Source: Anaerolineae bacterium
Lineage (GTDB): Bacteria; Chloroflexota; Anaerolineae; Promineifilales; Promineifilaceae
NCBI GenBank assembly: GCA_020848035.1
Contig: JADLAX010000003.1
Coordinates: 62,001-126,000 of the forward strand
DNA: 64,000 nt
Reading direction: 5' to 3'
Position 1 is the first letter of the stretch; the number at the start of each line of letters is the position of its first letter. Below, piece after piece: positions 24,380 to 39,004 of the stretch. Under the pieces are notes generated by a model that was given only the letters and a program-made list of their open reading frames with translations, had not been told where the DNA came from and ran no database searches. The translations under genes were made by a program, and so were the position numbers.

Positions 24380-24461
24380 TTCGCGTGTGTCCAGCGTTTC
24401 TAACCAGTTGCCTGGGAAACGGCTGTATTTTACCCATCTCTCTCACAAAAGGATGCCAGTC

Positions 24462-26423
24462 ATGAAGCGTATTTTCCTCCTGTTTTTAGGTTTCTCCGTC
24501 TCACTTTTCCTCATTTCTGTCTCTGGGCTTGGCCAGGCCACGGCGGGCGCAGCCAATCCACTCACCGTTGAGCTGCTTTCCCCACACAGTCAGACAACGG
24601 CAAACACCACGTTTAACAATTATGGCTACGGTTTGGTGGCCGGAGTTAATACCGCGCATGCGTATTGGCAAGAGAATGGCAACGGTGCAGAAGGGGCGGA
24701 CCTTTTTTACCGACAACTTCCTGACGGCAATACGGTTCGTCTGTCAGATCCGGCTCTGTCTGAAGGGAATGTGGACATAGTCTGGTTTGATACGGCCGTA
24801 GGCCAGGACAATACTTTCCACATGGCGTGGATGGAAACCGGATCTGCCTCTGAAGCCTACGATCTCTTCTATTGGAGTGCGGCTACCGGCACCCTGCTTC
24901 TAACCGACCGCACCCAAACCGAAGGCTACGTCCAACCTGCTTCTGGTACCCTTACCTTGCTATTGGATGCGGACGACATGGCCCACATCATCTGGTTTGA
25001 AGAAACCAATTCTGCCGAAGGCAGTGATCTTTTTTATTGGAGCCAGGCCACGGGGACAGTTTTAATATCCGACCACAGCCAAACCGAAGGGTCGGGTATA
25101 GGTCTTGGGCCAAACCGACTTATCATGGATGACAATGGCAACGCCCACGTCACCTGGGGTGAATACGGCACAGACGGTGTTACCGCCAGCTATTTCTACT
25201 GGAACCCCTCCCTATCATCGCCGGTAAATCTGCCTGCCATTCGCTCGTTTGTCGTCGCCAACAATGTGGCGCATATCATCTGGCAATCAGCGACCGAGGG
25301 GCCAATTGTTTATTGGAATTCCACTGGGCAAAGCGCCCAACCTATCCCTTCATCCGCAGACGCATCGGGCGGTATCATCAATACCGGCGGCCTGATTGAA
25401 GATTCAACCGGCGCGGTGCATATTTTCTGGGTAAAAGGTATTTCAGGCACCTGCCTGGCCCATTGGGATACTGCCAGCCAGACAACTGAAGATCTGGTGA
25501 CTGGCACTCAATGTTATCCTTTCTGGAACGTATTTCTGGACAGCTCAGACAATTTCCACACGATCGTGGTAGACCAACCCACGGCCACCCGCCGCTATCG
25601 TTATTGGAACGACACGCTTACCACGCCAGTTACAATTCCTATTGGAAGCTCAATCAGTCAAGGAAAGTTAATGGGCATCGAAGGCACCAACGAGGTTCAT
25701 GTTACCTGGATCGAAACCGTTGGCAGCGACGACAACTATTATCATTGGGACAACATAGCCCAAAATGCCACCAATCTCAGCACGTTAGCAGGCGCGGACA
25801 CGCATATTAGTACTACAGGAATTCAGGTACTACCGAGCAGCAATGGTGAACTGGTTATGCTCTGGTCTGAAGGGATAAACGGCACCGGGACATTTCACAA
25901 TCTTTACTGGAACTCGGCTACCAACACCACCGTTGATTTATTCACTGAGCTGGGAATTGGTTCTATAAACTCTGGTTTTGATCCTATGTCTGTTAATTTC
26001 TTACCAAATGGTGAGCCATACACGGTTTGGCCCGGCACGCCTATGAGTGGCCCCGCTGGGTTGTACATTTGGGACAGCAGCCAGGGTATGGTGCATCTGG
26101 CTGGGGAAAGTACGCCATGCAGCGAACTTAGCCGCTATTACAGCAGCGAAACTGATCAGCAAGGGAATATCTACCTGGCCTGGGAAGATGATGCCACAAA
26201 AACTAACTACCTCTGGAGCCAAACCAGTGGTCAGGTAGACCTGAGCCAAACCTTGGCAGCCGAAACCGAGTGTGATCCACCCCTGGTAACAATGAGCGAC
26301 AACGGCCGTATTTTTGCCATGTGGATCGAGGAAAGTGATGTGGCGGGCGAGGGTCTAGATGTGTATGGTGGCTGGCTGGATGCTCCTGGCTATAGCCTTT
26401 ACCTACCAATGATTACAAAATAA
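24462..26423 (+). CDS. Large secreted beta-propeller-like protein
   Basis: A 653-residue exported protein. Signal peptide residues 1-27 (IFLLFLGFSVSLFLISVSG). The rest consists of repeated ~45-60-residue beta units, best seen as DLFYRQL, DLFYWSAATGTLLL and DLFYWSQATGTVLIS, each followed by an acidic turn and H-x-x-W, as in bacterial propellers that survey extracellular ligands. No enzyme motif. It ends GYSLYLPMITK, the Y-L-P tail shared with other secreted proteins here. ATG at 24462 is preceded by AAAGGA eight bases away. The next gene, 47 bases on, is also a secreted repeat protein, so they are probably co-expressed. Confidence 0.8.
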   Translation: MKRIFLLFLGFSVSLFLISVSGLGQATAGAANPLTVELLSPHSQTTANTTFNNYGYGLVAGVNTAHAYWQENGNGAEGADLFYRQLPDGNTVRLSDPALSEGNVDIVWFDTAVGQDNTFHMAWMETGSASEAYDLFYWSAATGTLLLTDRTQTEGYVQPASGTLTLLLDADDMAHIIWFEETNSAEGSDLFYWSQATGTVLISDHSQTEGSGIGLGPNRLIMDDNGNAHVTWGEYGTDGVTASYFYWNPSLSSPVNLPAIRSFVVANNVAHIIWQSATEGPIVYWNSTGQSAQPIPSSADASGGIINTGGLIEDSTGAVHIFWVKGISGTCLAHWDTASQTTEDLVTGTQCYPFWNVFLDSSDNFHTIVVDQPTATRRYRYWNDTLTTPVTIPIGSSISQGKLMGIEGTNEVHVTWIETVGSDDNYYHWDNIAQNATNLSTLAGADTHISTTGIQVLPSSNGELVMLWSEGINGTGTFHNLYWNSATNTTVDLFTELGIGSINSGFDPMSVNFLPNGEPYTVWPGTPMSGPAGLYIWDSSQGMVHLAGESTPCSELSRYYSSETDQQGNIYLAWEDDATKTNYLWSQTSGQVDLSQTLAAETECDPPLVTMSDNGRIFAMWIEESDVAGEGLDVYGGWLDAPGYSLYLPMITK

Positions 26424-29158: not shown

Positions 29159-31816
29159 ATGAGCCCGAAAAAGCAAACCGATAAATATCAGGACCTCAAA
29201 ACATCCCTGGAAACACTACCCCACATTAGTTCCGCCCAGGTCGAGCACTGGATTCACATGCAGCAAGTGATCGACCAGACACGCGACTATCTCATCCGTG
29301 CCGTGCCCCAGGCGCAGCAAAGCATTGATGAGGCCCAGAAAATTTTGGCCCAACGCACCTATACCCTCGTCTTTTTTGGCGGCACGGGCGTGGGCAAAAG
29401 CACCCTCATCAACGCTCTATTAGGGCGTAATTTGTTGCCAACTGGCGCGGTAACGGCCGTTACCGGCACCATCGTCTACATCGAACAAGCCCAGGAAGGC
29501 GAAGCCGAATCCCTCGTCCTCACCTACTGGACCCAGGCTGAATTTGCCCAGCGCGTCCGCCGCCTTTGTCAGCTAGGCGATCTTGACGCCTTCGACATCA
29601 TCAACGACGGCGAGCGGGAGCAGGCCCGTGAAACCATCCAAAAGATCATGGCCGATGGGGCCGACAACGCCAAAACCGAGCGTGATGAATACCTGGAAAT
29701 CCTCATCGACTGCATCGACTCCTACGAGCACAACAAGGCGCTCTACGCCGACGGCCCGCCTGCACCGCGCAGCCTGGCCCTGGACAACGCCGATTCCCTG
29801 CGCCACCTGCGCGAAGACGGCTTCAAAGGCAGCCAGCAGCGCCAGATCCGGCTCATTAAATCCGCCACCTTCAAGATTCAGCCGCGCGCCGGGCAAGAAA
29901 GCCTGCTGATGAACGGCTACCTGCGCATCGTCGATGTGCCCGGTTTGGGCGCAGGCATGAAGCTGCACGAAGCAATCACCCTCGAAGAAATGAAGCGCGA
30001 AGACGCCATGATCGTGCTCGTCACCGACGCTGGTCGCCAGCGTGTGGATGAGCTGAAATCGCTCTCGGCCGTCAACTGGATCAAGGAAAATCGCCTCTTC
30101 GGCCTGAGCGGCGGCGATTTGGACGAAGCCGCCAGCAAAATCTTCCTGGCCGTCAACGGCGGCAACGTGCGCCAGGCGTTTGACCGCCTGAACTCTGGCC
30201 TGCCGGAAGCCGAGCTGGAAGTGAAAGAAGTCACCCGCTACGTCGCCCCCAATTACTGGGAGCGGTACCGGGATCGGGGCCACAATCGGCCGTATTTCCT
30301 GGTGATGGCCCCGCCCGCCCTCTACGTGCAGGACCCGGACAACGCACCCGACGAATTCGCCAGCGAAACCGAGCGCATCCTGAAGGTATTCCGCGACCAG
30401 TTGGGTCAGGTGAATGCCAGCGATCCGCTCGATCCAGAAACGGCCGCTGCCCTCCTCAAGCTCAGCGAAATCCCGCTGCTGCGCGAAAAGCTGATCACTT
30501 TCATCAAAACTGAGCGTGTGCGCAGCCAGCTGCGGGAAGCGGCCACCCGCATCCGCAACAGCCTGCAAGCGCTGCGCTTCTACTATGAGAAGCAGTTGGC
30601 CCATCGCGGCGTCCACCCGCCTTTTGCCAACAGCTGGGAGCAGCTGCAAGAACGCCGCTTCGAGAACGTCATCATTCGCCAGCAAAAAGAGCTGCCGCGG
30701 GCCTTCCACAACGCACTGCTGGAGCTGAACAACCGGACGAACAGCGACGGCCGTTTCCGCAACATCCTCCGCCCCACCCTCAACGGCATCAAGGGCATGG
30801 TCCAGGACGCCGTGCAGCGTGAGGTAGAAACGCTGCTGGAAAATTACGGCACCGAATATTGGGACGACCGCGACGTGACCTACGACAACCTCATCTGGGG
30901 CACCAGCGGCATCGAAATTCCGATCAAGCGCATCCTGTTCCAGGTTGAGCTGATCCTGCAAGATTCCGTCGCCAAGTTCATGCCCGAAGCGGCCGAGGTG
31001 ATTACGGCCGAATTGGAACGTACCCTGGAAGCCCACGAAATCCTGAGCCGCCTGCGCCGCGCTGCCTACGAGCAGGAGTACAACTACGCCATTCCCGGCG
31101 AAACGGCCGATGGTCTGGCCCTGGACGAAGCATTTAACGTCCTGGTGGAGCGTGTCGAGCGCAACTTCCGCCACGTTTGCCAGCAAGCGACCATGTACGA
31201 GCTGATGAAACCGGAGCGCTCGGTGCATTCCCGGCTGGACGCGGGCGAACGTGAACTGTCGCTGAACACCAACGAGCGGCTGCTGGATGTGGCCCTGCAC
31301 GGCGTCGAATCGGTGCGCCGCGAGATGGCCGCCAGCATGCCGACCCCCAACAATACGCAGACTGCGGCTGCCGCGCCCGCCGTGGCCGCCGAGCCAGAAA
31401 TCAACATCTCCATTCTGGATGAGCCAGTTCAACCGGCCACGGACTTCCAAATTAGCTTCGTCGGCGAAAGCGAAGCCAAGATGCCGCAGACCGACCTGGA
31501 AACCAGCTACGCCGACAAATTGGACAACGTCGCCGTGAAGGTCAACCGTATCTTTGGTGAGATTCTCAACGACCTGTTCAACGACGACGACCTGCTGCCC
31601 CGGCTGCGCCGCCTCTTCTGGCTGGAAGCCACCAAGGCGGAGCGGGACTTCAACACCCACATCGTCAAGCCGATGCTGAAGCAGCACGACCGCAACCTGC
31701 AAAAGCCGGAACTGCGCGCCGCCATGGAAATGGACCTGGAAAACGTGTCCGACCTGGAAGAGCTGATGCGCGTCTGGGACGGGCTGCACAAGCTGGAAAA
31801 CAGCCTGGCGATATAA
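29159..31816 (+). CDS. Dynamin-like large GTPase, first gene of the Ub-like operon
   Basis: An 885-residue protein of the bacterial dynamin-like superfamily. G1 (P-loop) is GGTGVGKST at residues 74-82; the switch-I threonine lies in TGAVTAVTGT near 95-104; G3 is DVPGLGAG near 258. No clean N/T-K-x-D G4 motif is seen, and a ~110-residue insertion lies between G1 and G3. Beyond about 390 the protein is almost wholly helical with coiled-coil segments (LREAATRIRNSLQALRF), as in the stalk/BSE parts of dynamins, and no transmembrane segment. AAGGAAGG precedes the ATG. Placement 5' of ubiquitin-like conjugation genes in one direction suggests it is a partner or target in membrane remodelling; that link is inferred from order. 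Confidence 0.85.
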   Translation: MSPKKQTDKYQDLKTSLETLPHISSAQVEHWIHMQQVIDQTRDYLIRAVPQAQQSIDEAQKILAQRTYTLVFFGGTGVGKSTLINALLGRNLLPTGAVTAVTGTIVYIEQAQEGEAESLVLTYWTQAEFAQRVRRLCQLGDLDAFDIINDGEREQARETIQKIMADGADNAKTERDEYLEILIDCIDSYEHNKALYADGPPAPRSLALDNADSLRHLREDGFKGSQQRQIRLIKSATFKIQPRAGQESLLMNGYLRIVDVPGLGAGMKLHEAITLEEMKREDAMIVLVTDAGRQRVDELKSLSAVNWIKENRLFGLSGGDLDEAASKIFLAVNGGNVRQAFDRLNSGLPEAELEVKEVTRYVAPNYWERYRDRGHNRPYFLVMAPPALYVQDPDNAPDEFASETERILKVFRDQLGQVNASDPLDPETAAALLKLSEIPLLREKLITFIKTERVRSQLREAATRIRNSLQALRFYYEKQLAHRGVHPPFANSWEQLQERRFENVIIRQQKELPRAFHNALLELNNRTNSDGRFRNILRPTLNGIKGMVQDAVQREVETLLENYGTEYWDDRDVTYDNLIWGTSGIEIPIKRILFQVELILQDSVAKFMPEAAEVITAELERTLEAHEILSRLRRAAYEQEYNYAIPGETADGLALDEAFNVLVERVERNFRHVCQQATMYELMKPERSVHSRLDAGERELSLNTNERLLDVALHGVESVRREMAASMPTPNNTQTAAAAPAVAAEPEINISILDEPVQPATDFQISFVGESEAKMPQTDLETSYADKLDNVAVKVNRIFGEILNDLFNDDDLLPRLRRLFWLEATKAERDFNTHIVKPMLKQHDRNLQKPELRAAMEMDLENVSDLEELMRVWDGLHKLENSLAI

Positions 31817-31819
31817 AAC

Positions 31820-31896
31820 TCCCCCTCCCTAGCCCTCCCCCGACGGGGGAGAGAACCTGATCCCCCCTCCCTTTGGGAGGGGGCTAGGGGGAGGGT
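31820..31896. repeat. Intergenic inverted repeat, CCCTCCC type
   Basis: CCCCCTCCCTAGCCCTCCC on the left is mirrored by GGGAGGGGGCTAGGGGGAGG on the right, with a small CCCC-GACG-GGGG type hairpin between. It lies between the first two genes of the Ub-like operon. Confidence 0.8.
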
Positions 31897-31926
31897 AAAA
31901 ACCTGTAACTTCTGTAGGAACGTCTC

Positions 31927-33138
31927 ATGACAGACCTTGCAACACAACCTCTGCTAAAACAACTCGACGACGCCCACCTGCCGGTTTTCGCCGTGCGGCT
32001 GACGGAGTGGCTGATTGCCGACCTGAACAAAAGCGCGGAAAGCGTGCCCGACTTCACCGAATCGCGAGCCAAGGCGCTGCTGCGGGCAACGGCCGTAGTC
32101 GATGACCCCACCCTGCATGATTTTGCCCGGCTGGTGGAAGGCGGCGGTACGGCCGTTCGCCTTGCCCTCCACGACTTACTCCAGGAAACCGGTCTGGCTG
32201 AAGATGAGGAAGTCACCGCCCTGGCCACCGCCAGCGCCGCAATCTCCAGTCCCCAATCTCCAATCTCCTGGCTATCGCTCAGCATCGCCGCCCACGCCTG
32301 GAAAAGCGGCTACCCGCTCTACCAGCTCGATCCGGCCTCGCCACCAGGAGAGTACAGCCCGGCCGGGCAGCTCATCAAACGCGCCGCCACCTTTTTGCGG
32401 CAGCAAATCCAGCGCAGCGCCACCGAGCGCGACAAGCTGGGCAAAAAGCTAGCCTACAGCCCCGGCGACGGCACGCCCACGCTGGACACGCTGCCCAACA
32501 GCCAGCCCATTGCCCCGGTGCCACCTCACTTCCGCCCGCCCATTCCGGTGCGCTACCCGGAAGTGTCGCGGGAAACGCTGCACGTCAACGAAAACGAGCC
32601 GCCCCCTTCGGCAGGCTCAGGGAGCAATGTAACGCGCAACGCACCGCTCACCATCACCAACGACGATATCCAGCCGGCCAACCAGCGGCCGGTGCGCATG
32701 CCAGAAATTCGCATTCGCGCGGATCAGGTGCCACAGCGACGGCCGTCCCCATCCAGCCAACCCCGGCCGCAACCGAGCAGCAGCAGTGGAAGTGGGAATA
32801 ACTTGGGAACGGCCGTACGCCAGCGCTTCAGCCGCGACAAGGAGCCGCTGCGCAGCACCAAGCTTCGCGTCATTGTGCAGGATGTGCAGGATGGCCCCGG
32901 CCTGTACGGCATTCAGGTGCAGGTGCGCTGCAAAGGCATCAACGCCCACGTGGCGGGCACCACCAACCGCGACGGCGTCTTCCTCTGCGAGCTGCCCGTG
33001 CGCGTCCACTCTGGCCTCACCTACGATGTGGACATCACCTGGCCCCGCGACCTGGGCGGCGAAGTCGAGCGCAAATCGGTCACGCTAAACGTAGATCGTA
33101 CCGAATTTAAGCTGCCCTTTTTCCGGCGTCTATCCTAA
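31927..33138 (+). CDS. Operon protein: helical N-terminus, disordered linker, C-terminal beta-sandwich
   Basis: A 403-residue protein without a named family. Residues 1-175 are helical. About 175-310 is Pro/Ser/Arg-rich and disordered. Residues 310-403 form a beta-sandwich (LRVIVQDVQDGPGLYGIQVQ, then AGTTNRDGVFLCELPV), like carboxypeptidase-regulatory or transthyretin-type domains. Residues 238-252 read APLTITNDDIQPANQ, matching PSLTITNSDIQAANQ at the N-terminus of the RING protein at 38021; here no zinc cysteines follow, so this may be a RING remnant or a shared docking strand. Two pieces of intergenic-type repeat are read through in frame (near 32241 and 32603). Likely adaptor or substrate receptor; inference. 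Confidence 0.75.
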   Translation: MTDLATQPLLKQLDDAHLPVFAVRLTEWLIADLNKSAESVPDFTESRAKALLRATAVVDDPTLHDFARLVEGGGTAVRLALHDLLQETGLAEDEEVTALATASAAISSPQSPISWLSLSIAAHAWKSGYPLYQLDPASPPGEYSPAGQLIKRAATFLRQQIQRSATERDKLGKKLAYSPGDGTPTLDTLPNSQPIAPVPPHFRPPIPVRYPEVSRETLHVNENEPPPSAGSGSNVTRNAPLTITNDDIQPANQRPVRMPEIRIRADQVPQRRPSPSSQPRPQPSSSSGSGNNLGTAVRQRFSRDKEPLRSTKLRVIVQDVQDGPGLYGIQVQVRCKGINAHVAGTTNRDGVFLCELPVRVHSGLTYDVDITWPRDLGGEVERKSVTLNVDRTEFKLPFFRRLS

Positions 33139-33144
33139 AGCAAC

Positions 33145-33214
33145 TGGTTGCAAGTAAGAAGTTGCAAGTTGCAAGTGAAAACCACTTGCCACCTGCAACC
33201 TGCCACTTGCAACC
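33145..33214. repeat. Intergenic inverted repeat, TTGCAAGT type
   Basis: Iterated GTTGCAAGT words on the left are mirrored by ACTTGC and GCAACC words on the right, between the beta-sandwich protein gene and the E1-like gene. Confidence 0.75.
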
Positions 33215-33232
33215 CCAAAACGATTAAACAAC

Positions 33233-34423
33233 ATGACTGAAACACCCGAACCCATCATCATTACCGATCCCGACAGCGACCGGTACCACACCTTCGGCTA
33301 CATCAGCTGGTGGCGGCAGGAAGTGGTGCGCAACGCCACCATCCTGGTGGTCGGCGCGGGGGCACTCGGTAACGAGGTGCTCAAAAATCTGGCCCTGATG
33401 GGCATTGGCAACATCCTCATCGCCGACTTCGACACCATCGAAGACAGCAATCTCAGCCGCTCCGTGCTGTTCCGCGCTTCGGACCGGGGCCGCCGCAAAG
33501 TGGATGCCGCCGCCGAAGCTGTGAAGGCGCTCAACCCAGACGTCAACGTCAAAACGTGGCACGGCAACATCAACTTCGAGATGGGGCTGGGCGTGTTTCG
33601 CCACGTGGACGCCATCATCGGCTGCCTGGACAACCGCGAGGCGCGACTGTCTATCAATCGCTTTAGCTGGCAGGTCAATCGGCCGTGGGTCGATGGGGCG
33701 ATTCAGGAGCTGATGGGCATCGTGCGCGTTTTCTGGCCCGGCCAGGGCGCGTGTTACGAATGCACCCTCACAGACCTGGATTACCAGATCATCAACCTGC
33801 GCTACTCCTGCCCGCTGCTGGCCCGAGAAAACATCCTACAGGGCAAGGTACCCACCACGCCCACCAGCGCCTCGATTGTGGCCGCGATGCAAACGCAGGA
33901 AGCGCTCAAGCTGATCCACAACATGGAAGTTCAGCCGGGCAAGGCGGTGATGATCAACGGCCTGACCAACGACATCTACACCACGGAATATCCGGTGAAA
34001 CAGGGCTGCATGAGCCATTCGCGGCTGGAGCCGATTGTGGAAGTGGAAGGGGGTACGGCCGTTTCCACCACCCTCGCCGAACTTCTAGCCATCGCCCGCG
34101 AAAAGCTGGCCGATGACGCCGTGCTCGAATTCGACGGCGAAATTGTTACCACCATGCACTGCCTGGACTGCGGTGAGGAGTTCCCCATCTTCCGCAAGAT
34201 GGCCCGGCTGTACGAAAACGAATCTGTCTGCCCCAACTGTAGCGGCCGGCGCGAAATGCGCATGACCCACCGCATCGACGGCAGCGAGGATTTCCTGGAT
34301 CGCACCCTGTCAGAAATGGACGTGCCACCCCTGGGCATCATCCGCGCCCGCAGCGCCAGCCAGAAGCAAAGCATCTACCTGGAGCTGACAGGCGATAAAG
34401 AGACGTTTTTGCAGTTTGACTAG
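33233..34423 (+). CDS. E1-like ubiquitin-activating enzyme (ThiF/MoeB fold)
   Basis: A 396-residue adenylating enzyme expected to activate the C-terminal Gly of the Ubl encoded next. The Rossmann ATP loop is GAGALG at 41-46; Asp65/Asp67 and SNLSR at 73-77 form the usual ATP/Mg site. Candidate catalytic or metal cysteines: Cys174-x2-Cys177 (ACYECTL) and Cys193 (RYSCPLL), the last in the crossover-loop region used for the thioester in E1s. A 60-residue linker leads to a C-terminal zinc ribbon, Cys310-x2-Cys313 and Cys333-x2-Cys336, then a beta-rich tail. It is shorter than eukaryotic E1s and lacks a classical Ub-fold domain. No obvious SD. Order and content place it in a dedicated conjugation pathway rather than thiamine or molybdopterin synthesis. 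Confidence 0.92.
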   Translation: MTETPEPIIITDPDSDRYHTFGYISWWRQEVVRNATILVVGAGALGNEVLKNLALMGIGNILIADFDTIEDSNLSRSVLFRASDRGRRKVDAAAEAVKALNPDVNVKTWHGNINFEMGLGVFRHVDAIIGCLDNREARLSINRFSWQVNRPWVDGAIQELMGIVRVFWPGQGACYECTLTDLDYQIINLRYSCPLLARENILQGKVPTTPTSASIVAAMQTQEALKLIHNMEVQPGKAVMINGLTNDIYTTEYPVKQGCMSHSRLEPIVEVEGGTAVSTTLAELLAIAREKLADDAVLEFDGEIVTTMHCLDCGEEFPIFRKMARLYENESVCPNCSGRREMRMTHRIDGSEDFLDRTLSEMDVPPLGIIRARSASQKQSIYLELTGDKETFLQFD

Positions 34424-34431
34424 TGAAGGAG

Positions 34432-34464
34432 AGAAGTTGAACTTCTGGCAAAAGTTCAACTTCT
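34432..34464 (+). terminator. Hairpin between E1 and Ubl genes
   Basis: AGAAGTTGAACTT (34432-34444) pairs perfectly with AAGTTCAACTTCT (34452-34464), just after the E1 stop. No long T-run follows, so it may process or partly stop the transcript. A TATAAA near 34499 could serve a separate Ubl promoter, but its -35 is weak. Confidence 0.5.
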
Positions 34465-34600
34465 AACGCCGGGTGCAACCCGCTGCGGCAAACTGCGTAT
34501 ATAAAGTGAATTATCGAGTTGATTTGAAACAAACAGAGCACAGCCAAACAGCGCGTGACTCAAAGCACAATTCAACCAAGACGAATGGAGGCTTTTTTCA

Positions 34601-34867
34601 ATGGCAAGCATAAAAACAATCATCTACGACCCGACCGGTTCCAAGAAAACCCCGGTGGAACTCCCAGACGACGTACCGATGCGGCGTTTGATTCCCGCGC
34701 TGGTTAGCAAAATGGGTCTGCCCACCAGCCAGGGGGCTAATCCCATCACCTACCGGCTGGACCACCGCTCCTCGGGCAAGCGCCTGAGCGAAGACGAATC
34801 ATTGGCCGATGCTGGTGTGGTCGAAGACGATATCCTGAGCCTGTTCCCGGAAGTAACGGCCGGTTAA
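34601..34867 (+). CDS. Ubiquitin-like protein (YukD/EsaB-like beta-grasp) ending in Gly
   Basis: An 88-residue beta-grasp protein, the proposed modifier. It shows the fold order: strand IKTIIYDP, strand KTPVELPDD, helix MRRLIPALVSKMG, strand ITYRLDH, the short SGKRLSEDESLADAGV turn and final strand DILSLFPEV. This pattern is closest to YukD/EsaB-type ubiquitin-like proteins. It ends V-T-A-G at the stop codon, a single C-terminal Gly ready for adenylation without trimming. Lysines are few (residues 5, 15, 16, 37, 60), so chain building would be limited. TGGAGG precedes the ATG. It lies between the E1 and E2 genes with gaps of 177 and 112 bases. Confidence 0.9.
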   Translation: MASIKTIIYDPTGSKKTPVELPDDVPMRRLIPALVSKMGLPTSQGANPITYRLDHRSSGKRLSEDESLADAGVVEDDILSLFPEVTAG

Positions 34868-34979
34868 CGGTAAAACGGTGATCAGTTATCAGTTTGAGTG
34901 AAAAGTAAAAAGTGAGAAGCGAGAAGGGAAAGTCAGTTCTGGCTTCAACCTTCCGCTTTTTGTCTTTTTTGAGGAAACC

Positions 34980-35513
34980 ATGTCCTTTGATATTCGTGAA
35001 ACCAGATTGCGCAACGACCATGAACGGATTCGGGCGCTGGTGAATCGCAGTGAGTTCATCCACATTTTAACTACGGAAGGTGATCCGGTTGAGAAGTATT
35101 TGATCCGCTTCACCTGTAAAGGCGTTGAAAATATCAACTCGGCCGGGACGCCCCAGCTGCGCGAAGTGCATGAGGTAACCATTTACCTCCACGCCGAGTA
35201 CCCGCTAAAGCAGCCGCAGCTCAAATGGCACACGCCTATCTTCCACCCCAACATTCACGTGACCGGGGCGGTGTGCATTGGGGCATGGTGGCCTGCCAAA
35301 ACCCTGGACGAACTGCTGCTAACGCTGGGCGAGATGATCCAGTACAAGAATTACGATCCCAAGGACCCGATGAACTCGAAGGCAGCCGCCTGGGCGCTGC
35401 GACACAAGCACATCTTCCCGATCGACCGGCGCAGTCTGAAGGGACAGTCGCTGGAAGATATGATTGTGCTGGGGCAGGAGGAATCGGATGAACTCGGCAT
35501 CAACATTCTCTAA
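34980..35513 (+). CDS. E2 ubiquitin-conjugating enzyme (UBC fold)
   Basis: A 177-residue protein matching the classical UBC fold. The sheet reads EVTIYLHAEYPLKQPQLKW, then the HPN motif His89-Pro90-Asn91, and the active-site segment TGAVCIGAWW with catalytic Cys99 eight residues after Asn91, as in eukaryotic E2s. TLDELLLTLGEMIQY and DPKDPMNSKAAAW correspond to the helix and D/N-P-x-x-D-P-x-N segments after the active site. A ~25-residue tail follows. The Cys is expected to take the Ubl thioester from the neighbouring E1-like enzyme. GAGG precedes the ATG. Its 3' end overlaps the start of the JAB gene. Confidence 0.95.
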   Translation: MSFDIRETRLRNDHERIRALVNRSEFIHILTTEGDPVEKYLIRFTCKGVENINSAGTPQLREVHEVTIYLHAEYPLKQPQLKWHTPIFHPNIHVTGAVCIGAWWPAKTLDELLLTLGEMIQYKNYDPKDPMNSKAAAWALRHKHIFPIDRRSLKGQSLEDMIVLGQEESDELGINIL

Positions 35514-36690
35514 CGGCCGTTCCACGACCAGCGACAGTGAACCCATGATTGGCCAACCCGAGATCGACAGCTTGCCGGAACGGCCGTTAACCGACCTGAC
35601 CGCCACGGCCCACCTGCACGGCCAGCAGCCAGCTGCCAACCAGGTAGTTGTCAGCCATCGTCAGCAGGCGCTGAGCCAGGTTCGGGCGCACAGCATCAGC
35701 AATTTGCGCGCGGAATTGGGCGGGGTGCTGCTGGGCCACGCCTACCGCGACGGGGACCGGCTGTTGGTGGAAGTGATCGCTGCCCTGCCCGCCCGCAACG
35801 ACGACCACGGGCCAATCCACTTTACCTTCACCGCCGATGCCTGGAGCCAGATTCACCACGACCGCGCCGAAAAATATCCCAACCTGGAGATTGTCGGCTG
35901 GTTCCATACCCATCCGGGTCTGGGTGTTTTTTACTCCAGCGATGATGTGGTGGTGCATACGGCCGCTTTCACCTTACCGTGGCATGTGGGGCTGGTCGTC
36001 GATCCGTTGGGCAACCACGCCAGCTACTTTGGCTGGCGGGATGGCGTCTTGGCCCCCATCGTGGGCTATTACGAGCAGCTAGACAGCCAGCCGACGCCGG
36101 TAGCCCCGTGGCGCGTGACCAAAACCGAGGTGTGGCACAGCCGCGAAACCGAGGAATTTTACGCTTCCTACGAAGGGCGCAGCGAGGCGGCTGGCCCGGG
36201 TAGGCTGTCTTACGGCCTAAATCTACCGAACACCGTAACCCTGGGCGTTCTTGGCTTTGTTATGGGGTTTTTTTTGCTTATTGGCTGGGTCGTGGCGCTC
36301 AACCGGCAGGTCAACCACCTGGAAAGCGTGGTGGCCAGCCTGGCGGGTGAAACGTCGCTGAACGCGGTGAGCTGTGCCGATGCCCGGCTGCGCATTGTGA
36401 CCCCTGTGACGCAAAGCCAGCTCACTGCCGGAGCCGATGTGGCTATTTTTGGCACGGCCGTTCAGCCAGAAGCCGCCCGTTACCAGATTGAGTATCGCCC
36501 GGCGGAGAGCGAACTGTGGGAGCTGGTTGGCGTACAGCGCCGCCAAACCGACCTGGGGCTGCTCACCACCTGGGACACTGGCGAACTGCCCTTGGGCTGG
36601 TATGAACTGCGGCTAACGGCCGTTGACCGCCAAAACATTCCCCTGCCCGGCATGGCCAGCTGCCAGATTGCCGTGCAGTTAATACCTTAG
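35488..36690 (+). CDS. Membrane-anchored JAB/JAMM isopeptidase with external domain
   Basis: A 400-residue zinc isopeptidase, probably removing the Ubl from targets. The JAMM motif is complete: Glu77 (ELGGVLLG), His140-x-His142 in GWFHTHPGLG, Ser150 and Asp153. A membrane helix spans about 251-271 (LGVLGFVMGFFLLIGWVVAL), followed by a short coiled region and an Ig-like domain (LRIVTPVTQSQLTAGADV...), so the JAMM domain is inside and the beta domain outside the cell. ATG at 35488 is chosen because AGGAGG lies six bases upstream, inside the end of the E2 gene, which it overlaps by 26 bases; this implies coupled translation with the E2. Confidence 0.92.
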   Translation: MNSASTFSNGRSTTSDSEPMIGQPEIDSLPERPLTDLTATAHLHGQQPAANQVVVSHRQQALSQVRAHSISNLRAELGGVLLGHAYRDGDRLLVEVIAALPARNDDHGPIHFTFTADAWSQIHHDRAEKYPNLEIVGWFHTHPGLGVFYSSDDVVVHTAAFTLPWHVGLVVDPLGNHASYFGWRDGVLAPIVGYYEQLDSQPTPVAPWRVTKTEVWHSRETEEFYASYEGRSEAAGPGRLSYGLNLPNTVTLGVLGFVMGFFLLIGWVVALNRQVNHLESVVASLAGETSLNAVSCADARLRIVTPVTQSQLTAGADVAIFGTAVQPEAARYQIEYRPAESELWELVGVQRRQTDLGLLTTWDTGELPLGWYELRLTAVDRQNIPLPGMASCQIAVQLIP

Positions 36691-36761
36691 CGGCGGGTTG
36701 TTAGCGGCTCGAACAGGCCTCCTAGCAACTTGCCACCAGCCACTATTGACTGGATCTATTT

Positions 36762-37925
36762 ATGACTGAATCAACAACGACCCATTACGTGGCGATTATT
36801 CAAATTACGCTGCCGGGGCAGGCAACGGCCGTTTCCGCCAACATTCGCCTGACCCCGACCGAACTGGTGCCCGTGGCAGGCAGCTACAAAACGCTGCACG
36901 AATGCACCCTGGCCGAGCTGCAAACCTTTGCCGACCAGATGGAAGCCGATATCTGGCAGACCTACGGCGAAATTAAGCTGGCGGACCTGGCCAAAGACGG
37001 CACGGTCAAAATGGCAATGGACGTGGTAGACGCCGCAGGCGAACCGGTTGCGCCTTCGCGGGAGTGGTTGGCCAAGATGGTCGTAGAGACGGCCGCTGCT
37101 GCCACCACCGAAGAAGCGGCCGACGAAACTGCTGCCGAGCCAGAAACGGCCGTCCCTGCCCAAATCGACGCGACGCCCGAGGAACCAGCAGCTGAACCGG
37201 CTGAAAAGGAAGCGGAAACGGTTGTCGAAACGGCCGCTGCGCCAGAGCCGGAATCCACGCCAGAACCCGTCGCCGCCAAATCTGTGCCCGCCAACGACGT
37301 GGACCAAATTGTCGTGTCGGAGCCGGAGCCGGTGCATGAGGAGCGGGAAGCGCAGCCAGACGCCACCAGCGGCACGATCATTGCTCCCAGCCGGGCGCGG
37401 GTGCGCATCGCCGGGCGGCATCTGCCCATCGGCGATCCGACGCCGGCGGCGGTGGACATTACCATTGAAGAGCCAGCTTTGCGCGCTTCTCAGGCCCATG
37501 CGCTGAGCAGTTTAAATCGTGAGGTGGCCGGGGTGCTGGTTGGCCCCAGACCAGAGAAGCAGCCAGACGGCCGTTACCGCGTACACATCCTGGACACCAT
37601 CATCGCCAAGTACACGGTGATGCACGGGGCGAGTGTGACCTACACGCCCGAAAGCTGGCGCTACATGACCGATAAGCTGCGCGAACGGTACCCGGATGAA
37701 ACGGCCGTTATCGTTGGCTGGTACCACACCCATCCCGGCTTTGGCATCTTTTTGTCGGGAATGGATTTGTTTATTCACCAGAACTTCTTCACGCAAATCT
37801 GGCATGTCGCTTTTGTGCTGGACCCACGTGCCCAAACCAGCGGCTTTTTCAGCTGGGATCGGCAGAAAACGCAGGTCTCGCGGCACAATTTTCAGTGGCC
37901 AGACTGGGCCGCCGGGAGTTGGTGA
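36762..37925 (+). CDS. Second JAB/JAMM isopeptidase, soluble, with long linker
   Basis: A 387-residue protein. Residues 1-108 form a small alpha/beta domain (ATAVSANIRLTPTELVPV, LAELQTFADQMEADIWQ). Residues 109-205 are an Ala/Glu/Pro/Val-rich disordered linker. The JAB domain covers about 225-385 with all ligands: Glu254 (EVAGVLVG), His322-x-His324 (YHTHPGFG), Ser332 and Asp335. No membrane helix, unlike the JAB encoded just upstream; the two JAB domains are clearly paralogous. No good SD is visible. Because the Ubl already ends in Gly, both JABs are more likely deconjugases than maturation proteases. Confidence 0.9.
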   Translation: MTESTTTHYVAIIQITLPGQATAVSANIRLTPTELVPVAGSYKTLHECTLAELQTFADQMEADIWQTYGEIKLADLAKDGTVKMAMDVVDAAGEPVAPSREWLAKMVVETAAAATTEEAADETAAEPETAVPAQIDATPEEPAAEPAEKEAETVVETAAAPEPESTPEPVAAKSVPANDVDQIVVSEPEPVHEEREAQPDATSGTIIAPSRARVRIAGRHLPIGDPTPAAVDITIEEPALRASQAHALSSLNREVAGVLVGPRPEKQPDGRYRVHILDTIIAKYTVMHGASVTYTPESWRYMTDKLRERYPDETAVIVGWYHTHPGFGIFLSGMDLFIHQNFFTQIWHVAFVLDPRAQTSGFFSWDRQKTQVSRHNFQWPDWAAGSW

Positions 37926-37930
37926 TTTTT

Positions 37931-38013
37931 GGAGACCGGAGATTAGAGATTGGAGATTGGAGATTGGTGTATAATTAGCCAAGAAATCTCTAATCTCTAA
38001 TTCTCCAATCTCT
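37931..38013. repeat. Intergenic inverted repeat of the GGAGATT family
   Basis: GGAGATT/AGAGATT words (37931-37966) are mirrored by AATCTCT/AATCTC words (37984-38013). The RING gene starts eight bases after the right arm. Confidence 0.85.
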
Positions 38014-38020
38014 TAAGAAA

Positions 38021-38446
38021 ATGGACGAACAGGAAATGCCCTCCCTCACCATCACAAATAGCGACATCCAGGCCGCCAATCAGCTGAGCCTGCACTGCCC
38101 CATTTGCGCCAATCCAGTAGAAAAGTTTGTGGACGAGCGCGAACTGCTGCCGGTGGTGTGCGCCAAGTGCGGCACGCTGTACCACAAGGTGTGCTGGGAA
38201 CAGGGCGGCGGCAAATGTGCGGTGCTGGGCTGCGGCCACGACAAATTTAAGGTGTACGGCACACCGGCCAGCCCAGTGCTGAGCATCAAATACACCGATC
38301 TGCCACGGCCGTCGGCAAACGGCCGTTCCAGCCAGCAAACCAAGCGCCTCAAAGAAGAACAGCGCCGCGAGATCGAGCAACTGCGACGGCCGTCGCTGCT
38401 GCAGCGCCTCTTTAAGTGGCTGCTAGACCAGATCAAAATTGGCTAA
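38021..38446 (+). CDS. Prokaryotic RING-type zinc-finger protein, candidate E3
   Basis: A 141-residue protein. Zinc ligands are Cys26-x2-Cys29, Cys47-x2-Cys50, His55-x2-Cys58 and Cys66-x4-Cys71, the cross-brace pattern of prokaryotic RING fingers (CPIC, CAKCGTLYHKVCW). The N-terminal strand PSLTITNSDIQAANQ is shared with the operon protein at 31927. The tail (residues 95-141) is a basic amphipathic helix ending LLQRLFKWLLDQIKIG that may touch the membrane. No enzyme motif, so it would act as a RING E3-type adaptor between the E2 and substrate. No SD is seen; the start lies just after a repeat hairpin. Confidence 0.88.
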   Translation: MDEQEMPSLTITNSDIQAANQLSLHCPICANPVEKFVDERELLPVVCAKCGTLYHKVCWEQGGGKCAVLGCGHDKFKVYGTPASPVLSIKYTDLPRPSANGRSSQQTKRLKEEQRREIEQLRRPSLLQRLFKWLLDQIKIG

Positions 38447-38455
38447 ATAGAAATA

Positions 38456-38514
38456 GGAGATTGGAGATTGGAGATTTAATCTCCAATCTCTAATCTCTAA
38501 TCTCTAATCCCCAC
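38456..38514. repeat. Intergenic inverted repeat of the GGAGATT family
   Basis: GGAGATT words (38456-38476) are mirrored by a longer run of AATCTCC/TAATCTC words (38478-38510). It separates the two RING genes. Confidence 0.85.
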
Positions 38515-38521
38515 TCCCCCC

Positions 38522-39004
38522 ATGCTTCCCCCCCTCATCATCACCAAGCAGTCCCCATTTTTGGGCGAGGAATGCGCTCTTTGCAAAAATCCGCTGGCAC
38601 CGGGGGATGAGATAGTCATTTGCCCGGAAGACAGCACGCGCCACCACGCCCACTGCTGGCGAGCCAACGGCAACAAATGCGCCGCCTACGGCTGCCGGGG
38701 GCGGGGCGAAATTGCCGTGCCCGAATCCACCCCGCCCGAGCCAGCCCCGGCGCAGCCGCCACCAATTCCTGACCGCCAGCCACCAACCACGAGTGCAAAC
38801 GGCCGTATCCAACATACCGCCAACCGTTTTGGCTGCGGGCAGGGCTGCCTGCTGATAGCCATTGCCATCGCCATCATCTTCTTTTCGATTGGCTGCTTTG
38901 GCCTGTGGGCCATTGCCGATTACATCATGCTGGAAGTGCTGGGCTGGCAGTACCGCGTGCCGGAAGCCGGCATCATTCTGCCCCAACTTTTGCTGTTGAT
39001 TTAG
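38522..39004 (+). CDS. Membrane-anchored RING-like protein, second candidate E3
   Basis: A 160-residue protein. The N-terminal finger has Cys18-x2-Cys21, Cys34, His42-x2-Cys45 and Cys53-x4-Cys58, the same spacing as the previous protein (HAHCW versus HKVCW), but the fourth ligand position is Asp37 (CPED), so a neighbouring His may substitute. Its start PPLIITKQS repeats the P-L-x-I-T lead of the other operon proteins. A Pro-rich linker (67-95) precedes a hydrophobic helix at about 109-133 (CLLIAIAIAIIFFSIGCFG). The finger is predicted cytoplasmic, placing E3 activity at the membrane beside the JAB-TM protein. Last gene of the operon. Confidence 0.82.
   Translation: MLPPLIITKQSPFLGEECALCKNPLAPGDEIVICPEDSTRHHAHCWRANGNKCAAYGCRGRGEIAVPESTPPEPAPAQPPPIPDRQPPTTSANGRIQHTANRFGCGQGCLLIAIAIAIIFFSIGCFGLWAIADYIMLEVLGWQYRVPEAGIILPQLLLLI

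Follow-up and report, generated by a model that had tools for sequence, protein, structure and literature searches.

What does a complete set of ubiquitin-like conjugation genes do in a bacterium when a dynamin-like GTPase heads the operon? The question is raised by nine genes in a 64,000-nucleotide stretch of contig JADLAX010000003.1 (positions 62,001 to 126,000; GenBank assembly GCA_020848035.1), here called the window, which is part of the 7.65-Mb, 104-contig genome of an Anaerolineae bacterium. Its family, Promineifilaceae, is referred to below as the family. From the gene content, residues, gene order, distribution, co-retention and motif enrichment described here, we favor, with a little better than even confidence, the reading that the nine genes form a system for conjugating and removing a ubiquitin-like protein (Ubl), that this system is a core trait of the family, and that it probably controls a dynamin-like GTPase complex at the inner membrane by reversible, non-degradative tagging.

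The nine open reading frames (ORFs) all lie on the + strand in the order DYN, ADP, E1, UBL, E2, JAB1, JAB2, RNG1 and RNG2. They stand where the preliminary description of this DNA had placed nine same-strand genes, and Pfam backs its assignments in eight of nine cases, with ADP being the exception. Only the start of JAB1 is shifted, as it is more likely the ATG at 35545, 31 bases past the E2 stop, than the TTG at 35464. The genes and their features are as follows.

29159..31816, +, DYN, dynamin-like GTPase of 885 residues (Pfam Dynamin_N, 8e-13)
29378-29404, +, DYN P-loop GGTGVGKST, residues 74-82 (motif alignment)
29933-29950, +, DYN DVPGLG, residues 259-264 (motif alignment)
31927..33138, +, ADP, adaptor-like protein of 403 residues, conserved beside DYN
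32647..32670, +, ADP motif LTITNDDI, residues 241-248, in a low-conservation linker (conserved island in the alignment)
33233..34423, +, E1, 396 residues, single adenylation domain (Pfam ThiF, 1.5e-53)
33809-33811, +, E1 putative thioester Cys193 (alignment invariance)
34601..34867, +, UBL, YukD-type ubiquitin-like protein of 88 residues (Pfam YukD, 2.7e-12)
34859-34864, +, UBL C-terminal Ala87-Gly88 (alignment)
34980..35513, +, E2, 177 residues (Pfam UQ_con, 2.2e-14)
35244-35252, +, E2 HPN, H89-P90-N91 (alignment)
35274-35276, +, E2 predicted catalytic Cys99 (alignment)
35545..36690, +, JAB1, JAMM protein (Pfam JAB, 4.9e-9; Prok-JAB, 1.4e-9)
35905-35946, +, JAB1 HxHP...SxxD (JAMM motif in 44/44 rows)
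36241-36297, +, JAB1 transmembrane-like segment, one (35/35 rows of 300 residues or more)
36762..37925, +, JAB2, soluble JAMM protein (Pfam JAB, 3.3e-9; Prok-JAB, 1.2e-5)
37725-37766, +, JAB2 HxHP...SxxD, behind an acidic Ala/Glu/Pro-rich region (motif count)
38021..38446, +, RNG1, small soluble RING-like protein (Pfam Prok-RING_1, 2.8e-7, over cut-off)
38045..38068, +, RNG1 motif LTITNSDI, residues 9-16, at the N-terminus ([LI].I[ST]..D[IV] in 32/32 rows)
38096-38233, +, RNG1 ligands C26 C29 C47 C50 H55 C58 C66 C71 (all eight invariant, 32/32)
38522..39004, +, RNG2, RING-like protein (Pfam Prok-RING_1, 1.8e-10, over cut-off)
38849-38905, +, RNG2 transmembrane-like segment (22/22 rows of 120 residues or more)

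The gene order is kept in relatives, a check that the preliminary description had named beforehand. Among the 44 family loci on which the counts are based (L028-L071), UBL is followed by E2 in all 44 and E2 by JAB1 in 43, the sole exception being L063, where the contig stops inside E2. All nine genes occur in identical order at 14 of these loci; at the remaining 30, the contig ends cut the operon, the second RING gene is undetected, or the GTPase and adaptor are not beside E1. With neighbors conserved to this degree, the arrangement is not due to chance.

At the center of the operon lies the conjugation core. Searches with the E1 sequence and with its profile rank the PDB chains of UBA7, UBA1 and UBA2 before MoeB, and E1 matches UBA5 over a longer stretch (28-232). 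Cys193 is located past the UBA1-aligned part and is invariant in every family row with a letter there (39 of 40 rows), as well as in 27/27 cross-phylum rows, which points to it as the likely thioester cysteine. A C-terminal zinc ribbon in E1 also seemed important, but was rejected because its CxxC cysteines are conserved neither in the family nor in the cross-phylum rows. In E2, the previously noted 'HPN plus Cys99' correspond to H89-P90-N91 and C99, which are invariant in 45/45 family rows and 13/13 rows across phyla. The E2 profile matches Ubc13 (4e-12) and UbcH5-type E2s, and alignment to Ubc13 shows that the Tyr-Pro before the active site, the HPN, and the Trp-x-Pro-Ala after the active site are kept. 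The region of the Tyr-Pro and Trp-x-Pro-Ala is where E3s bind.

The Ubl itself contains Ala87-Gly88 in 45/45 family rows, three of which continue into a tail of 2-5 residues, and Ala-Gly in 14/14 rows across phyla, where the tails are 0-9 residues long (6/14 tailed). The window UBL has no tail, and of the near-identical Ubls at L074 and L075, one is tailed and the other is not. Because Ala-Gly is constant while the tails vary, we read it as the mature end of the protein. This conserved end had been overlooked earlier. The UBL profile finds multi-ubiquitin chains, with scores summed over the repeats, none of which passes by itself. A weak match (E 0.012) is to PDB chains named 'Ubiquitin-like protein', which we take to be those of Caldiarchaeum.

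The downstream genes encode the JAMM and RING proteins. In JAB1, the C-terminal region behind the transmembrane-like segment contains two conserved cysteines (36/36 and 35/35 rows), and this placement suggests a disulfide outside the cell with the JAMM domain inside. The membrane anchor of JAB1 is absent from the preliminary description, which did propose a membrane-anchored RING; the segment in RNG2 supports that proposal. Since the conservation of JAB2 is blurred by partial rows, its motif was counted instead: it is present in 33 of 38 rows, and the five misses are partial rows or lie at contig ends. Residues C18 C21 C34 H41 H42 C45 C53 C58 of RNG2 are invariant in 23/23 rows. Judged by its domains and catalytic residues, the locus appears to hold, as claimed, a full write-and-erase gene set in a Chloroflexota bacterium.

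With its large GTPase domain and its G1 and G3 motifs, DYN fits the dynamin family. The P-loop and DVPGLG are invariant in 14 rows, save for the nearly invariant V78. Its family profile matches Slr0869 (8.6e-10), presumably SynDLP, as well as mitofusin-2 (5e-4) and BDLP (1.1e-3), the best of these matches (Slr0869) spanning only ~200 residues. For ADP, nothing in Pfam exceeds its cut-off, and even a profile of the family's ADP sequences hits no PDB chain at E of 10 or below.

RNG1 and ADP share a short linear motif that had escaped the preliminary description. In ADP it forms a conserved island amid a variable linker and is kept even at loci where DYN and ADP are split from UBL. Letters are present at the motif in 39 of 42 ADP rows; position 1 is Leu, Ile or Val in 39, position 3 is Ile, Leu, Val or Met in 39, position 4 is Thr or Ser in 35 and an acid occurs at positions 5-7 in 39, split loci included. 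A matrix derived from RNG1 only was applied to the remaining 9,649 ORFs with at least 35 codons on both strands of the family loci. Nine score 10 or above, and five of these are genes for a protein, X, encoded between ADP and E1. Scores of at least 10 are reached by ADP in 12/25 cases and by JAB2 in 1/37. As descriptive counts, a single fixed expression occurs in RNG1 32/32, ADP 19/25 and X 11/13, amounting to 37, 21 and 21 copies, respectively, versus shuffled means of 0.06, 0.2 and 0.08. It is absent from DYN (0/21), E1 (0/40), UBL (0/45), E2 (0/45), JAB1 (0/44) and RNG2 (0/23) and found once in JAB2 (1/38), and the background is four copies in 3 of 361 non-operon ORFs of 200 codons or more (129,514 residues).

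Protein X, from sister genera, is a CAP-domain protein (CAP/SCP-like; PF00188, 2e-10 to 2e-12 in the three tested) whose N-terminus bears as many as three motif copies. It is inserted between ADP and E1 in L041, L043-L048, L052, L053, L055, L059, L060 and L071, and 21 of the 52 family genomes match it at E 1e-56 or below. On reading, it has no apparent signal peptide. An ORF between ADP and E1 in L029 shows no relation to X and is not counted with it.

SUMO-interacting motifs consist of a hydrophobic strand with acidic residues behind it, and the shared motif has the same composition. By this analogy it is likely a docking signal, perhaps for UBL. A Lys-Lys pair in UBL (residues 15-16; 34643-34648), before the second strand, is constant in 45/45 family rows and absent from the sister-family Ubls inspected, which have no motif-bearing partners; it may provide a basic patch that receives the acidic motif. 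In addition, an Ala/Pro-rich linker in DYN (residues 745-770; ~31391-31468) contains two conserved short strands, INISILDEP and DFQISFVGE, which resemble hydrophobic-plus-acidic docking segments but fail the shared motif.

How widely is the system kept? A protein search with E2 returned 55 loci, 44 at 63-98% identity, all in Chloroflexota, and 11 distant ones in Armatimonadota, Desantisbacteria, Ignavibacteria, one Chloroflexi and others. E2 is present in 32 of 35 family genomes. UBL is found in 49 of 52 family genomes, covering 22/22 genera and 17/17 of the cleanest genomes. DYN is likewise matched in 49 of 52, though in G010 by a weak P-loop match only, leaving 48 at E below 1e-30, of which 42 are near full length and six in pieces; these include 17/17 of the cleanest genomes. 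Both UBL and DYN are present in 45 of 52, and the system is single-copy in nearly all family genomes. Median identity to the window, taken outside its genus after dropping rows covering under 70%, is highest for UBL (91%, 41 rows), followed by E2 (78%, 41), E1 (78%, 35), DYN (76%, 15), RNG1 (62%, 29), JAB2 (54%, 31), ADP (53%, 18), RNG2 (51%, 20) and JAB1 (48%, 33). Within that genus, the ratio of nonsynonymous to synonymous substitution rates (dN/dS), from two comparisons per gene, is 0.005-0.009 for UBL, 0.046-0.065 for E1, E2 and DYN, and 0.19 for RNG2.

The surroundings of the operon are of a housekeeping type. It is flanked upstream by a GNAT gene pointing away from it and downstream by a photolyase gene facing it, both on the opposite strand, and Pfam on the six flanking genes also identifies a MerR/B12-type regulator and an M32 peptidase. 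The near-universal UBL and DYN, the identity ranking, the low dN/dS and the housekeeping neighbors together argue that this is a conserved core system of the family, vertically kept, rather than patchy defence. Further upstream, the gene at 24387-26423 was considered as a ubiquitin-binding Pru-domain protein (22.7 bits versus a cut-off of 25, with no stretch passing alone). It was dropped as a chance match, as its translation resembles a secreted, repeat-rich protein and it is absent from the 55 loci searched.

Beyond the family, we used a class sample of 249 Anaerolineae genomes. Of these, 31 have a match to the UBL profile, consisting of 14 family members, nine strong matches in four other families and eight weaker ones. 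DYN, scored on up to three candidates per genome, matches 37, but the match is near full length solely in the 14 that belong to the family. A distant GTPase (29-30% identity) occurs in two genomes from a different family, neither of which has a UBL match, and the other 21 hits are short. None of the nine non-family genomes with a strong UBL match has a DYN match, nor is DYN found in the flanks of the 11 distant loci, through which alone other phyla were covered. Since full-length DYN is confined to family members, the DYN module would either have been added within the family or have been lost from the others.

Six loci from other families (L133, L147-L151) carry a Ubl-E2 fusion, a free Ubl ending TAG and an E1 whose ORF is 555-617 codons long. 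RING is detected by profiles in three of the six, and no DYN, ADP, X or motif was found in them. One JAB is present in three and two JABs in the other three, which bears on the earlier view that the GTPase, doubled JABs and membrane-anchored RING make the system distinctive: the GTPase-adaptor module stands as such, whereas two JABs do not, as they also occur in 4 of the 11 distant loci. The E1 of L151 (5997-7661) has an N-terminal GntR-type helix-turn-helix domain (Pfam 5.7e-20, one locus tested), as those of L133 and L147-L150 perhaps do, judging by length. An E1 with a DNA-binding domain hints at added transcription regulation. A differing order is seen in L072 from Armatimonadota: E2, UBL, E1, JAB, a second E2-like gene and two RING proteins.

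The residues and domains of the operon allow a mechanism to be proposed. E1 would adenylate UBL at Gly88 and take it onto Cys193, and E2 would then receive it on Cys99. The soluble RNG1 and the membrane-anchored RNG2 would serve as E3s, while membrane-anchored JAB1, with its JAMM side presumably inside, and JAB2 would take the tag off again and cut away the short tails found on some Ubls. DYN and ADP would be the effector or substrate module. The motif shared by RNG1, ADP and X likely docks to one common partner, most simply UBL, in the way SUMO-interacting motifs bind SUMO. Because E3-like and protease-like parts both appear anchored, the partner is dynamin-like, no proteasome match is found, and a motif joins E3 and adaptor, the tagging is best read as reversible, non-degradative and located at the membrane. 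A bolder form of this mechanism, which we offer tentatively and by analogy, is that the Ubl is written on a membrane dynamin by the membrane-bound RING, and read by repeated motifs resembling SUMO-interacting motifs in the RING, adaptor and CAP proteins; reversible tagging would then govern the fission or fusion of bacterial membranes, much as ubiquitin acts on mitofusins in eukaryotes.

Several observations weigh against the reading we favor. UBL was not found in G064, G017 and G072, and DYN is lacking, or reduced to a weak P-loop match, in four family genomes, namely G010 (96% complete) and G073-G075 (77-82%). Hydropathy reveals no transmembrane-like or strongly hydrophobic segment in DYN, and a canonical N/TKxD motif was not found on reading its sequence. 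UBL ends in Ala-Gly, not Gly-Gly, and position 37 of RNG2, at the place of the fourth cysteine of RNG1, is Asp in 22 rows and Cys in one. With regard to the motif, the strict expression is missed by 6/25 ADP and 2/13 X sequences, and a search of the window's genome for X gave no match. Furthermore, the expression was composed with the sequences already known and the rows share ancestry, so its counts are descriptive, though the contrast to background is still large. A DNA-pattern search of the window's genome gave nine sites versus none for the reversed pattern, and only one of the nine is ADP. The other eight were dismissed as chance-like: on reading, six fall inside longer unrelated proteins, a seventh belongs to an ORF of just 21 codons, and the last sits at the tip of what is probably a secreted protein. 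Finally, several genera have a split operon, and DYN-ADP may therefore have a partly independent role.

This last point leads to an alternative that we consider possible but doubtful, in which the Ubl system is complete and its operon merely houses DYN and ADP, a pair that maintains membranes independently of it. No fewer than six genomes, from four genera, have DYN-ADP away from UBL: DYN is on a different contig in G024 and G033, and in G059, G062, G031 and G016 the two share a contig at a distance of ~10-20 kb. The split module nevertheless stays DYN-ADP, plus X where present, and in G016, E1 sits with X-ADP-DYN, away from UBL. Linkage of DYN to the conjugation genes is thus not absolute, but retention is nearly so: full-length DYN is restricted to the family in the class sample, DYN and UBL are both near-universal there, and the ADP linker keeps its RNG1-shared island when split. 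In one of these assemblies (L119; G031:C453), a single in-frame stop interrupts the dynamin gene.

The other alternatives concern what the tag is for. BIL is a patchy defence system found in defence islands, and the preliminary description had suggested defence here. An anti-phage system akin to BIL, tagging phage proteins, would account for the shared E1, E2, Ubl and JAB (PMC11354881). PADLOC, too, gives matches of E1 to E1-E2 models (best 1.1e-19, 69 bits) and BilD (26 bits), of JAB1 to JAB models (9e-8) and of DYN to Leo models (2.6e-11). However, UBL and E2 match no PADLOC model, the system is near-universal and mostly single-copy, purifying selection is strongest on UBL, and the neighbors are a GNAT gene, a photolyase, a MerR/B12-type regulator and an M32 peptidase, which together make defence improbable and set that suggestion aside. 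Marginally less probable still is a tag for destruction by an ATP-dependent protease, despite the precedents of ubiquitin, Pup and UBact. The window's genome has no match to the 20S proteasome or HslV, which are matched in 10 of 14 controls (Clp, Lon and FtsH were outside this search), and the nine genes include no unfoldase family. It is least probable, and in our view very improbable, that the YukD-like protein is a non-covalent or type VII secretion part while E1 and E2 act on something else. YukD is the best Pfam family of UBL, and in Bacillus subtilis, YukD does not become attached to other proteins (PMC1779556). Against this are the invariant Ala-Gly end with its variable tails, the fixed E1/E2 neighborhood and the Ubl-E2 fusion in sister families, and neither an FtsK/SpoIIIE ATPase nor WXG100 was found among the nine genes and the six flanking genes checked with Pfam.

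Experimentally studied bacterial Ubl systems are mainly of the phage-defence or stress-response kind, such as BIL and Bub (PMC11354881, PMC13373217). With a RING-containing version as a core family trait, the role of Ubl tagging outside defence becomes a testable question. If true, the dynamin link and the motif resembling SUMO-interacting motifs would provide a physiological target and perhaps the first bacterial code for reading a Ubl, and would bear on bacterial parallels to the eukaryotic partnership of ubiquitin and dynamin.

The components can be compared with known systems one by one. DYN resembles Slr0869, BDLP and the mitofusins in its GTPase domain, as seen by profile match. Mitofusin is reported to be ubiquitylated in eukaryotes (PMC6925385), and we know of no link between Slr0869, BDLP or mitofusins and a bacterial Ubl system. 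For the conjugation genes, Burroughs, Iyer and Aravind reportedly described, in Mol BioSyst in 2011, prokaryotic neighborhoods of E1, E2, RING, JAB and YukD-like Ubl in which the Ubl was predicted to be conjugated. By this definition the window is alike, as it has all five in one neighborhood, Prok-RING_1 included, with the E1 cysteine, E2 HPN and cysteine, JAMM and RING ligands intact apart from the RNG2 Asp in 22/23 rows. It seems unlike them in its free Ubl, its two small RINGs, one of them membrane-bound, and its dynamin-ADP(-CAP) module with the shared motif. A literature search, with subscription journals mostly outside its coverage, found no paper on a bacterial dynamin-Ubl operon, which is weak evidence of novelty; a search of the same coverage for Promineifil- with ubiquitin also found none.

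Prokaryotic neighborhoods of E1, E2, Ubl and JAB are known (PMC1779556), and RING-containing Ubl systems occur within FtsH ternary systems, where they are linked with effectors of the vWA/FtsH and caspase-like kinds (Kaur et al. 2020, PMC7159879). Ubl-E2 fusion systems, both in that paper and at the sister-family loci, share E1, RING and JAB with the window, although the sister-family loci are without DYN, ADP, X and the motif. The archaeon Caldiarchaeum has an E1/E2/RING/Rpn11 operon with two RING-type E3s and a Ubl whose tail is cut by a JAMM protein, and its cascade was reconstituted in vitro (PMC5654768, PMC6043591); complete ubiquitylation operons are also mentioned for some bacteria (PMC5654768). 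The Caldiarchaeum operon is similar in its E1, E2, two RING-type proteins and JAMM proteins. Its Ubl, CsUb, differs in ending Gly-Gly, compared with Ala-Gly in the window, in 45/45 family rows and in 14/14 across phyla. As for the tail of CsUb, the window's UBL has none, and 3/45 family and 6/14 cross-phylum rows carry one. The parts of these papers available mention no dynamin, adaptor or membrane-anchored RING or JAB for Caldiarchaeum.

BIL is a four-gene operon of E1, E2, Ubl and JAB without RING, whose BilB has a CEHH motif (PMC11354881). The window shares the four components of BilABCD, but has an HPN E2 rather than CEHH, two Prok-RING_1 proteins, housekeeping neighbors and a presence in 49/52 family genomes, and among the 25 models listed of the 33 matched by E1, just one is a BilD, at 26 bits. 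The preliminary description was thus right to separate the system from BIL. Taken together, the core kind, with E1, E2, RING, JAB and a YukD-like Ubl, is already described and is not categorically new, whereas the family-wide, dynamin-linked variant with its shared, likely docking motif appears to be new.

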